DNA of 64,000 bases. Origin: Methanolobus sp. ZRKC5. Lineage in GTDB: Archaea; Halobacteriota; Methanosarcinia; Methanosarcinales; Methanosarcinaceae. The notes below the pieces were generated by a model. It was given only the letters and a program-made list of their open reading frames with translations. It was not told where the DNA came from and searched no databases. The DNA is taken from contig NZ_CP151792.1 of NCBI RefSeq assembly GCF_038446525.1, positions 2,046,001 through 2,110,000 of the forward strand. Direction: 5' to 3'. Both the position numbers and the translations under genes were made by a program. Below, in pieces: positions 29,623 through 34,285 of this stretch (its first letter is position 1; each line of letters begins with the position of its first letter).

Positions 29623-30783
29623 TCAAATATTCTGCCTGCGGTTAAGTGAATACATCTGTATCTTCTTCATCTTCGCAAGGTTAAGAGCACCCTTTATCTC
29701 TTTTTCCTCAAGCAGTTTTGAGTCTATATAACCGTTATCAACAGCTTCATTATACAATTCATATCCCAGACCTGAGCGGGCAATGACCGTGGTCCGTCCC
29801 TGTGGTGTACCGACACCGCCAAAAGATATATCGGCATTCTCAGCTGCCATATCCGTACAGAATTTGCATGAGCTGCTCCTGTACACGTCCAGTTCATGTA
29901 GAGGATAGACCTTTAGCTCTTCAGGGGTGTGGAATTCAAACTGACCCTTACGAATCTTCATGGATTCGATATCTTCCAGACGTATGTTCTTGCTTTCCAC
30001 GAATTCCTTAATTCCTTCGTAATAGAAAGTATCCATACAGAACAGTCCCATTTTCAGTATATTCGCTCTCATGAATAGATTCAAAAATCCGTATGGGCTT
30101 TTTTGCATCTTGGTGACAGCATCGATATTACAACTCGGACCTACAAAAGCGATACTTCTCCAGCCCTGTTTTATGGCACTCATCAATGCATTCATTGTCA
30201 TGCTGTGACTGTACATACTGCCGGAAGAGTCCAACAATTCTTCGCATGTCCGTGCGATCATGGGTACGGGTTTCCACGGTTCCTCTTCTGATCTTTTGGT
30301 GACGATGGCACAGTCGATGAGTCCTTCATCAAGTGCATATGCAAGCATTGCAGTCACAACTCCACCATCCTGTCCCTTGATATCGGGAAGTGCTGAACGT
30401 GCACTGTAAGCATTGCGTAGCTTTCCGATGAGTCCCTCTTCAGTTGTTATGGTTCGAGGACACTGATTGTAGCAAACACCACATGCAGTGCATTTGCTCA
30501 CAAGTGTGGGCTGATCGTTTTTGATAGCTATGGATTCACATGCTGCTGAGCAGGCTCCGCACAAGGTGCAGATTCCCGGCTTGATTATATCCTTCCTTAG
30601 TTTCCCAAAAGATATGCGCTCTTTTTCAGGGATGGATCTCTTCATTCGTATAACGCTTTTTTCGAGGTGCTCGAATTTAACCTGGCACCAGTCGGAACAA
30701 AAATGGTACGTTTTTCCTCCGTATTCTGTATTACACGGAGACCCCTCAGGGACAATTTTTTTACATATAGGATCGATCGGCAT
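29623..30783 (-). CDS. YHS domain fused to F420-dehydrogenase beta-type (FrhB-like) subunit
   Basis: The 386 residues begin with a YHS metal-binding domain (about 1-45; DPICKKIVPEG, YHFCSDWCQVKF). Two ferredoxin motifs follow: CTLCGACSAACES (about 73) and CTACGVCYNQCPR (about 97). The rest is the FrhB/FpoF domain (about 125-375), which in relatives binds FAD and F420 and passes electrons between F420H2 and iron-sulfur clusters. This order, Fe-S then FrhB, matches the electron-input half of F420-dependent sulfite reductase Fsr. Here it is separate and has an added YHS domain. It is divergent from a siroheme reductase-like gene. The likely job is to feed F420H2 electrons to that partner, by inference. 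Confidence 0.8.
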   Translation of the reverse strand: MPIDPICKKIVPEGSPCNTEYGGKTYHFCSDWCQVKFEHLEKSVIRMKRSIPEKERISFGKLRKDIIKPGICTLCGACSAACESIAIKNDQPTLVSKCTACGVCYNQCPRTITTEEGLIGKLRNAYSARSALPDIKGQDGGVVTAMLAYALDEGLIDCAIVTKRSEEEPWKPVPMIARTCEELLDSSGSMYSHSMTMNALMSAIKQGWRSIAFVGPSCNIDAVTKMQKSPYGFLNLFMRANILKMGLFCMDTFYYEGIKEFVESKNIRLEDIESMKIRKGQFEFHTPEELKVYPLHELDVYRSSSCKFCTDMAAENADISFGGVGTPQGRTTVIARSGLGYELYNEAVDNGYIDSKLLEEKEIKGALNLAKMKKIQMYSLNRRQNI

Positions 30784-31001
30784 CTTAATCTCCCAGGATC
30801 ACGGATGTCCTTTTAGGATGCGTTATATTGTTCTTATTGTATAAAACAAAATTTGAATTATATAATCATTAAGGTTCGCAGCATCATGATTATTAGTGAT
30901 ATTTCCTGTGTTTGAGGGATGTTCCAAAATGTTTTTATGCCAGCTATTTATTACTAAACCAGTTATCTATTCCTTCACTATTAACAGGTGTTTCAAATAA
31001 C

Positions 31002-31017
31002 TTCCATATAAATGGAA
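31002..31017 (+). promoter_or_regulatory. Palindrome over the TATA box of the sulfite-reductase-like gene
   Basis: TTCCAT-ATAA-ATGGAA is a perfect 16-bp palindrome whose centre is the TATA box itself. It lies 15-31 bases before the ATG at 31033, so the message is nearly leaderless. A dimeric repressor here would block TBP. The rest of the 249-bp divergent gap (30784-31032) has A/T-rich promoter sequence for the leftward gene and no ORF. Confidence 0.55.
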
Positions 31018-31032
31018 CAGAAAGTGACCTAA

Positions 31033-31902
31033 ATGGTAAAAAGAAATTCAGACAAAGACCTGCTAAAGGAAAAAGGTTTTCTTTCCCAAAGGCAGGATGA
31101 TTACTTCTCCATGCGCTTGCACGCTGCAGGTGGCAAACTGACATCCGATTATCTCAGGGCAGCAGCTGATGCTGCCGACAGGTACGGTAAGGGCTATGTA
31201 CATGTGACCTCCCGTCAGGGCATGGAGATACCGTTCGTTCATCTTAACAATACAGATGATGCCAGTGAGCAAATGATTTCAGCGGGAATTGGTCCGGGAG
31301 CCACCGGAAAAAAGATAAGAGCTGTCGTGGCATGCCAGGGAGACAGTGTTTGCAAACGTGGTCTTATTGACTGTCAGGGAATATGCGAAAAAATAGATGG
31401 GTTATACTTTGCAAAACCAGTTCCTTACAAGTTCAAGATAGCAGTAACTGGCTGCCCCGCATCCTGCCTGAAAGTTCAGGAAAACGATTTCGGTATCATG
31501 GGTTTTGAAGAACCTGTTTTTATTGAAGACAATTGTGTCATGTGCAGGCAATGCGAAAAAGCCTGTGGTATGTTGGCCATAAATATTGAGAGTAGCAGCC
31601 TTTACCTTGATATGCATAAATGTGTATCCTGTGGTTTGTGCATTGCAGCATGCCGTAAAGATGCCATGCAAACAAAGGCACAAGGGTTTGCTATCTTCGT
31701 TGGTGGTAAAGTCGGTAAAAGACCACGCATGGGCGACCAGTTGCTCAGGACGAACAAAGAGGAAGTTGTGTTTGATATCCTCGAAAAGACCATTGAATAT
31801 TATCGTCAGAATGCTTTTGAAGGAGAACGGCTGGGCGATGTCATTGACCGGAATGGTATGGATCATTTTGGGGAAACAATAAAGTATCCCAGGCAAAAAT
31901 AG
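31033..31902 (+). CDS. Small siroheme sulfite/nitrite reductase-like protein (Dsr-like)
   Basis: The 289-residue protein has an N-terminal ferrodoxin-like half domain (about 15-80; GKGYVHVTSRQGMEIPF), then the coupled siroheme/[4Fe-4S] ligands ACQGDSVCKRGLID (Cx5C, about 98) and TGCPASCLKVQ (Cx3C, about 138). Two ferredoxin motifs follow, CVMCRQCEKACG and CVSCGLCIAACR (about 173 and 198). This is the compact dissimilatory-sulfite-reductase-like type known from methanogens. The substrate of this class is unproven; sulfite, nitrite or a sulfur intermediate for cofactor synthesis are options. It faces the YHS-FrhB gene and leads a radical SAM gene. Confidence 0.82.
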   Translation: MVKRNSDKDLLKEKGFLSQRQDDYFSMRLHAAGGKLTSDYLRAAADAADRYGKGYVHVTSRQGMEIPFVHLNNTDDASEQMISAGIGPGATGKKIRAVVACQGDSVCKRGLIDCQGICEKIDGLYFAKPVPYKFKIAVTGCPASCLKVQENDFGIMGFEEPVFIEDNCVMCRQCEKACGMLAINIESSSLYLDMHKCVSCGLCIAACRKDAMQTKAQGFAIFVGGKVGKRPRMGDQLLRTNKEEVVFDILEKTIEYYRQNAFEGERLGDVIDRNGMDHFGETIKYPRQK

Positions 31903-31954
31903 GTTATGTAACTATACTACTAAAAAAGGTCATATTTTCGCGAATGGAGAATTC

Positions 31955-32932
31955 ATGAAACCAGAAACTAAAGCACAACTTATCTCAGTAGGTTCCGTAA
32001 ACATGGATCCTACTCTCATTCACGGTTTGACCATCCCCACAGCCGGTCCTGGAGCTGGCAATGTAGCCTTTTTTTTCAACTCTGGAGGAAACCGTGTCCG
32101 TCTCGCTGTTAAAAAAGAATCTCCATTAAATGCAGAAATGGAAAATGGGGAACTTGTGATAAGAAGGGACGGTGTTGAGATTGCAAGAGGCAATATTGAA
32201 GAGGAACTCATCCACTGCCCGGATCAGGCTTTCATTACTATGTGTGAGAAATGTATCTTTGACTGCAAGTTTTGTCCTGTCCCAAAATTAGGTGGCAAGG
32301 TTAAGACCATGGATGAGATGCTGAAGATGATTGCAGATGCCAACAGTACCGGTAGGATGAAGGCAATTTCCATCACATCAGGCGTTGAAATATCTGCAGA
32401 AAAAGAGGTTGACAGGGCTGAGGAACTTATTCGCAGGCTCAGGAACATATATAATGTTCCAATCGGTGTTTCCGTATACCCGACTGAAGGCAGCACACGC
32501 AGGCTTAAGGACGCCGGTGCTGACGAACTCAAATACAACGTTGAGACCATGGACAGGGATATCTACGCGGTTGTCTGTCCCGATCAGGACCTTGAGCACT
32601 TACTTGATGCATTAAGAGAAGGCGTTGAGATATTTGGAAAGAACAAAGTCTGTTCCAATTTCATAATCGGCCTTGGGGAAACGGATGAATCCGCAGAGAA
32701 AGGCATTGAGGAACTCGTATCCATAGGCGTTGTTCCAATTCTAAGAGCCGCTGCCAGACACCCGTTACGCGAAGGCGAGGTGACAATAGAAAGACCATCT
32801 GCAGAAAGGTTACTTCATCTCAACCGTTTCCTGAGGAGAAAACTGGATGAGCATGGTCTGCGTGCAGATACTTTTGATACGATGTGTTTGCCGTGCACAG
32901 GATGCGATATCAATCCGCATTCGGACCTTTAA
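31955..32932 (+). CDS. Radical SAM protein of unknown function
   Basis: The 325-residue protein has the radical SAM cluster motif in CIFDCKFC (CxxxCxxC, about 92-99) within a TIM-barrel. It also has ISITSGVEISAEKEVDRAEEL (SAM-binding region) and ELKYNVETMDRDIYAVV, reminiscent of biotin synthase/lipoyl synthase-like enzymes. Extra cysteines LPCTGCDINPH at the C-terminus could hold another cluster. GGAG 8 bases ahead of the ATG sets the start. It is 52 bases after the Dsr-like gene and probably co-transcribed. I do not recognise a named family; sulfur insertion or cofactor maturation would fit the context. Confidence 0.75.
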   Translation: MKPETKAQLISVGSVNMDPTLIHGLTIPTAGPGAGNVAFFFNSGGNRVRLAVKKESPLNAEMENGELVIRRDGVEIARGNIEEELIHCPDQAFITMCEKCIFDCKFCPVPKLGGKVKTMDEMLKMIADANSTGRMKAISITSGVEISAEKEVDRAEELIRRLRNIYNVPIGVSVYPTEGSTRRLKDAGADELKYNVETMDRDIYAVVCPDQDLEHLLDALREGVEIFGKNKVCSNFIIGLGETDESAEKGIEELVSIGVVPILRAAARHPLREGEVTIERPSAERLLHLNRFLRRKLDEHGLRADTFDTMCLPCTGCDINPHSDL

Positions 32933-33076: not shown

Positions 33077-34285
33077 TTACTTCCTTCTCATAAACACAAA
33101 TGCTAGGCCCATTATTGCAGCCATTGGCAGTATAACCGTTGGGAATTCTGGTATATCTGCAGCTGGTGATGATTCACCAGGCACTGTGATTTTAACATCC
33201 TGTGAAGCCAGAATAGCTCCGTCTGCTACAAGGTGTATCTTAAAATTGTACTCTCCAGAGGCAGTTCCAGCAGGTACTGTAATTGTCACGTCGAACTGCT
33301 TTGTTTCGCTTCCTTTGACATCAGTGTATGACTCTGGGGTCCATGATACCCAGCTCTCATAACCTGGTTCTACTTCAAGGGTAAGCGCATCGATGTTTGA
33401 TACTACATCACTTACAAGAGAAAGAATAGCATTCTTTACTTCAGCTGAGTCGTCGATTTGATAAACATTTCCACCGGTAATACCTGTCCAGTGAGTCCAG
33501 TACTCCAACTTGCTTGAACTACTTTGTACTTCCAGAAGGGTAATGTCGTTGTTCTTCATTTCCTGCAGGACAGTTTGAAGGTCGAGGTCATCATTTCCTA
33601 CGCCGATCTTGCTGGAGTCTGATGTTTCATCCATTACTCCATTCCTTCCTGGGTTTCCACCGGTAGTATAAATCCCGGTTTTACCAGGTACGTCTTCGTT
33701 CAGGTTGTTGTCATGAGGGATATCATCAGCGAAATTGATGAATATCTTCTTTGCTCCCGTGCGATAGCCTATTGTTGTATCAGCATAGCTTTCATAGAAT
33801 ACACGAGTATATCCTTCAGGTCCATCGCTTCCGTAGCCAAGTGATAGGCCGTTTATTGCACTGGATATTGCCGCCTTATTATTTGTTATTGCATTGTCCA
33901 TGTTGTATGGGTAATCGCCGCGTGAAGCTACGCCGTATGTGTTAGAATAGCCAAATGAATTGTATTGATCTACATCATCCATGTATGATACCACACCGAA
34001 CTGTGCATCAGGAACCTCGGAATCTACCGCAGTCATAATGTCAACAGCATTGGATTTTGCTGTACTGAGGACATCGCCCATACTTCCGGTAAGATCAAAG
34101 CTGAAAACTATATCAGCTCTTCCTATGGGGGTCGCGTCAGTTATCACTGTTTTCGTTTCCTCTACGGATTCCCCTGGATTCAGAGTGGTCTCTATAGAGA
34201 CTGGCGTAAAGACTGTTGCTCAGGCTGTTGAAAATAACAGCAGGGTCGCAACAATCATTATTGTAATTATATTAATTTTTCTCAT
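33077..34285 (-). pseudogene. Von Willebrand A surface protein (PEF-CTERM) with in-frame TGA in the signal peptide
   Basis: Read from the ATG at 34285 the frame gives a signal peptide MRKINIITIMIVATLLLFSTA, then a TGA at 34222-34220, then ATVFTPVSIETTLNPGESVEE in the same frame and an uninterrupted domain. Downstream comes a von Willebrand A domain (IVFSFDLTGSMGD, MIDAS motif DxTGS) and a beta domain. The end is IPEFPTVILPMAAIMGLAFVF plus RRK, the PEF-CTERM tripartite signal recognised by an archaeosortase. Full length would be about 402 residues. A GTG at 34147 could start a signal-less 356-residue protein, which would not reach the surface. The TGA needs confirmation. Confidence 0.75.

Follow-up and report, generated by a model that had tools for sequence, protein, structure and literature searches.

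We read the locus described here as a sulfur-assimilation neighbourhood and not as a single split enzyme, an interpretation in which we place moderate confidence. Its components would be a small assimilatory-type siroheme reductase, a non-obligate F420H2 donor and a sulfur-linked radical SAM protein. The relation to sulfur is drawn from the active site of the reductase and the genomic context of its sister group, as well as from the neighbours of the radical SAM family in other methanogens.

Layout of the locus and class of the siroheme protein

The three genes lie in a 64,000-nucleotide stretch (the window) of the 3.05 Mb genome of Methanolobus sp. ZRKC5. The proteins and motifs that an initial annotation had read from the DNA are all present, as seen from Pfam domains and cluster motifs:

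29623..30783, minus strand: YHS-FrhB, 386 aa, composed of a YHS domain, two [4Fe-4S] clusters and an FrhB/FdhB core (Pfam, PDB relatives, FrhB tree)
29674..30429, minus strand: FrhB core, residues 119-370, an FAD/F420 module by homology
30460..30570, minus strand: two [4Fe-4S] motifs of YHS-FrhB, C72 to C108
30667..30777, minus strand: YHS domain, residues 3-39, with Cys7 and the two Cys of YHFCSxxC (Pfam)
30784..31032, no strand: divergent promoter region of 249 bp between YHS-FrhB and Dsr-LP
31033..31902, plus strand: Group III Dsr-LP, a small siroheme sulfite-reductase-like protein, 289 aa (Pfam, alignment to Fsr)
31333..31467, plus strand: siroheme-[4Fe-4S] ligands C101-x5-C107 and C141-x3-C145 (alignment)
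31534..31653, plus strand: inserted ferredoxin domain, C168/171/174/178 and C197/200/203/207 (alignment)
31955..32932, plus strand: radical SAM protein (rSAM), 325 aa, of an uncharacterised, sulfur-gene-linked methanogen family (Pfam, loci)
32252..32275, plus strand: CX3CX2C SAM-cluster motif, C100/C104/C107
32885..32905, plus strand: C-terminal CxxCxGC motif, C311/C314/C317

The genes of YHS-FrhB and Dsr-LP diverge across the 249 bp, and in the window 52 bp separate Dsr-LP from rSAM. About 30 bp immediately upstream of the YHS-FrhB gene (30784-30812) are strongly conserved in most of the Methanolobus compared and extend past the ribosome-binding site. When a shared operator was sought in this gap, the conserved stretch was found next to YHS-FrhB only and a clear palindrome was not found. 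Downstream, between rSAM and CopA, the window carries a gene for a VWA-like surface protein (33077-34147); none is found there in the other Methanolobus loci compared.

Judged by its sequence, the siroheme protein of the window is a Group III Dsr-LP as defined by Susanti and Mukhopadhyay, who in 2012 described this class along with free-standing homologs of the N-terminal half of Fsr (PMC3448663). As in other members, the siroheme-[4Fe-4S] centre belongs to a free-standing protein that also has two ferredoxin clusters and the sulfite-binding Arg/Lys residues; no defining sequence feature distinguishes the window protein from the class, and its gene neighbourhood alone is particular to Methanolobus. 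The class was still termed biochemically uncharacterised in 2018 (PMC6286981), and our literature search found no biochemistry for any Group III Dsr-LP. Pfam recognizes NIR_SIR_ferr and NIR_SIR domains and two 4Fe-4S motifs, and the full-length protein aligns to the C-terminal half of Fsr (E 5e-43).

The initial annotation held that a shared system would be unlikely if the siroheme ligands varied among orthologs. All four ligands of the siroheme cluster are found in the window protein, and they are conserved, with C101, C141 and C145 present in 64/64 homologs and C107 in 59/64. The eight cysteines of the ferredoxin domain, corresponding to a peripheral and an additional [4Fe-4S] cluster, are likewise present in 64/64, so that the twelve cluster cysteines are kept across the 64 homologs save for C107 in five divergent rows. 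Asparagine occupies the position of the second siroheme-cluster cysteine in exactly five rows of the Dsr-LP alignment. In one Candidatus Methanoperedens genome (G056, locus L218) two Dsr-LP genes stand in tandem, the second being a member of a divergent five-row clade. Five basic residues, R28, R61, R96, K133 and K135, align with R355, R388, R423, K460 and K462 of Fsr and are kept in 63-64 of the 64 homologs. In Fsr, R355, R423, K460 and K462 are the sulfite ligands, and R388 is the arginine typical of assimilatory enzymes (PMC10229431).

In the Dsr-LP tree (65 rows), the clade holding the window protein, clade B, contains sequences from Methanolobus, Methanomethylovorans, Methanosarcina, Methanococcoides and Methanohalophilus. 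Its sister group is encoded in PiT / Dsr / CysH / CysD-CysN or Sat operons (loci L124, L127, L130, L131, L132, L211, L213, L216, L225, L232, L233 and L238), and this placement in sulfate-assimilation operons points to assimilatory sulfite reduction. In our reading, Dsr-LP would reduce sulfite to sulfide at its assimilatory-type siroheme-[4Fe-4S] centre, with electrons probably entering through its own two-cluster ferredoxin domain. In most Methanosarcina (L119, L121 and others), the clade B gene follows two genes for AzlC/AzlD-like membrane proteins, which were named by eye.

The YHS-FrhB flavoprotein

Pfam assigns YHS-FrhB a YHS domain at residues 3-39 (E 2e-10) and both FrhB_FdhB domains, N (E 7.5e-27) and C (E 3.3e-40), whose scores of 93.7 and 137.9 bits compare with cut-offs of 22 and 23.3. 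The eight ferredoxin cysteines and C218, C249, C306 and C309 of the FrhB core are invariant among 26 homologs. The core matches the structures of F420-dependent enzymes with Z-scores of 26-33, reaching about 32 for FrhB and the ethanotroph F420-CODH component and 26-27 for Fsr. Since the confidence of the predicted model is moderate (pLDDT 77.6, pTM 0.63), we make no claim about the placement of the YHS domain. YHS-FrhB is a candidate F420H2-oxidizing electron-transfer flavoprotein, and its proximity to Dsr-LP bears out the earlier view that an F420H2-type flavoprotein adjoins an assimilatory-type siroheme reductase. It shares an N-terminal two-cluster ferredoxin domain and the FrhB core with free-standing FrhB modules such as FpoF, FGltS alpha and the F420-CODH component 8riu_B, but differs from them in the YHS domain added in most members and in belonging to a clade of its own with Asgard homologs.

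The extra YHS domain to which the initial annotation drew attention is real in the window protein, yet it is dispensable in the family. It has been lost from Methanomethylovorans and from some second copies in Methanolobus, is absent from the Asgard homologs and is decayed or degenerate in M. profundi, and we therefore rejected it as a defining part of the protein; in ANME-2 one of its cysteines is replaced by histidine. These losses also bear on the possibility that YHS-FrhB serves in metal handling or stress, driven by F420H2 and linked to the nearby copper ATPase, the sulfur genes being incidental. YHS domains generally bind metal, and CopA is found near YHS-FrhB in Methanolobus, ANME-3 and some Methanoperedens. 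However, several lineages lack YHS cysteines or have other residues in their place, and CopA is not found near YHS-FrhB in Methanosarcina and Methanohalophilus, and we regard a metal-handling role as very improbable. In the literature searched, no paper joining a YHS domain to a methanogen F420 protein was found.

Several relatives of YHS-FrhB deserve description. The Asgard proteins (L189, L190, L193, L195), the closest relatives found beyond Methanosarcinales, lack the YHS domain and are longer at the C-terminus by about 100 residues. In six Methanococcoides genomes (G092-G095, G099 and G100; loci L101, L102 and L155), the YHS-FrhB gene has an in-frame TAG at about residue 343, beyond which homology continues, and the codon is possibly read as pyrrolysine. 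Paralogs without YHS (L166, L167, L168, L181) are located after LarB-LarC or LarB-LarC-LarE, genes of the nickel-pincer cofactor, which suggests that they are an F420-linked partner of that pathway.

The split-Fsr question and gene linkage

The initial annotation took the two redox proteins for a split relative of Fsr. Taken further, this would make them a dedicated F420-dependent sulfite reductase, in which YHS-FrhB and Dsr-LP form a complex as the halves of Fsr do, with rSAM acting in maturation or on the product. The resemblance is genuine: Dsr-LP aligns to the C-terminal half of Fsr and YHS-FrhB to the N-terminal half, ferredoxin parts included. The two genes are divergent neighbours in 14 Methanolobus, and a split haloarchaeal aFsr has already been proposed (PMC3448663), providing a precedent. 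Yet the differences from Fsr are not confined to the two divergent genes and the added YHS domain. In the phylogeny of FrhB cores, YHS-FrhB and the Asgard homologs form one clade (91/85), apart from the rows of Fsr-N, FpoF-like and FrhB-like proteins, so that YHS-FrhB is a separate paralog and not half of a split Fsr. In addition, an intact, fused Fsr is encoded elsewhere in the same Methanolobus genome. The tree and the intact Fsr together led us to reject a split Fsr, and clade B Dsr-LPs and YHS-FrhB each occurring without the other, together with a near-universal rSAM found irrespective of Dsr-LP, also weigh against it. All in all, we consider a dedicated split reductase unlikely.

The linkage survey does not sustain the view of a conserved three-gene set either. 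Clade B Dsr-LP is present in 15/27 Methanolobus genomes, always at this locus, and is flanked by YHS-FrhB in 14/27, the remaining genome (G128) having kept Dsr-LP and rSAM without YHS-FrhB. Ten further Methanolobus carry YHS-FrhB and rSAM without a clade B Dsr-LP, and the divergent YHS-FrhB/rSAM pair also occurs in Methanohalophilus, where Dsr-LP is not found between the partners, and in two further genera. Thus, the conserved unit is the divergent FrhB/rSAM pair. The gap between Dsr-LP and rSAM is 22-95 bp in most of the Methanolobus loci examined; in three Methanolobus the two genes are split by other genes, a reversed kinase gene in two of them. In Methanosarcina, YHS-FrhB lies beside mmp14 and before GatCAB, with rSAM and Dsr-LP at other sites.

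Dsr-LP also persists where YHS-FrhB does not. In Methanosarcina G150, G153 and G177, YHS-FrhB is broken or partial, and in G151, G159, G162 and G172 no YHS-FrhB match was found at the threshold used; Dsr-LP is intact in all of these. This pattern of loss shows that Dsr-LP does not depend on YHS-FrhB. Across Methanosarcinaceae genomes with a completeness of 95% or more, in a table compiled by hand, presence of clade B Dsr-LP and of YHS-FrhB is weakly associated (41/8/16/9, p = 0.08, kinship ignored), and strict co-occurrence of the two was accordingly rejected.

The same observations fit a simpler account, in which a housekeeping region with mmp14, thioredoxin and GatCAB has long held YHS-FrhB and rSAM side by side, Dsr-LP lies between them by chance, and the three proteins do not cooperate. 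The pair without Dsr-LP in ten Methanolobus and in Methanohalophilus, the dispersed arrangement in Methanosarcina, the survival of Dsr-LP after loss or breakage of YHS-FrhB and the disrupted Dsr-rSAM spacing in three genomes would all be expected from conserved gene order alone. Nevertheless, all 15 Methanolobus with a clade B Dsr-LP carry it at one and the same locus, and the rSAM family is associated with sulfur genes independently of this locus. We regard conservation of gene order without cooperation as a serious possibility, though a less than even one. Under the preferred reading of a sulfur-assimilation neighbourhood, YHS-FrhB would oxidize F420H2 and relay the electrons along its N-terminal clusters, and a role as an F420H2-linked electron donor is reasonable; it would be a plausible, non-obligate donor to Dsr-LP, either directly or via ferredoxin.

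The radical SAM family and its sulfur context

The third protein is a clear member of the Radical_SAM family in Pfam (E 3.5e-15, 57 bits against a cut-off of 29.5). Both cysteine motifs, C100/C104/C107 of the SAM cluster and C311/C314/C317 near the C-terminus, are invariant among 22 homologs, as are C88 and C208. The C-terminal cysteines, together with C88 or C208, may bind a second Fe-S cluster. The predicted model (pLDDT 93.4) is most similar to lipoyl synthase (Z 20.6 over 229 residues, rmsd 3.1), and lipoyl synthases are followed by HydE and BioB, within an overall Z range of 17.9-20.6. The sequence also matches LipS2, BioB and LipA, but weakly, with scores far under the NCBIfam cut-offs in every case (54.9/270, 43.7/225 and 30.9/310 bits, respectively), and rSAM differs from lipoyl synthase, BioB and HydE in a family-conserved N-terminal domain and the C-terminal CxxCxGCD. 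As lipoyl synthase, HydE and BioB have a common fold but different functions, the fold of rSAM is no proof of sulfur insertion. None of the literature searched names an MSMEG_0568-type radical SAM protein and, as far as we could find, the family is uncharacterised.

Members of the family are encoded in 172/186 Methanosarcinales genomes and by many genomes elsewhere in the phylum. In distant methanogens, 7/20 rSAM loci lie near genes for SepCysS, MetY, MetX, CysE, CysK, ThiI, LarE or MoeB/ThiF, usually several of them together, versus 0/40 control loci taken from part of the same set of genomes; the p value of 2e-4 is indicative, since the sulfur-gene classes were picked after the loci were seen and the seven positives represent four families. 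These neighbours support the suggestion in the initial annotation that the function of the radical SAM gene is related to sulfur. Methanohalophilus (G108) has a further rSAM copy, with a sulfate-assimilation cluster some 6 kb away (locus L132). We suggest that rSAM acts in sulfur metabolism, of cysteine/homocysteine or of a cofactor, probably by radical sulfur insertion with the help of a second Fe-S cluster. A more specific version, in which rSAM inserts sulfur in the thiol or cysteine/homocysteine metabolism of methanogens and, in Methanolobus, receives sulfide from the co-oriented Dsr-LP and F420H2 electrons from the divergent YHS-FrhB, appears quite unlikely; if true, it would tie the redox state of F420 to radical sulfur insertion.

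Methanogens widely encode Group III Dsr-LPs, to which no function has been assigned. The placement of one of them in Methanolobus, with an F420 module on one side and a radical SAM gene on the other, and of its sister clade in sulfate-assimilation operons, offers concrete tests. The rSAM family, near-universal in Methanosarcinales, uncharacterised as far as we could find and linked to cysteine/homocysteine genes, may carry out a sulfur step of methanogens to which no enzyme is assigned.
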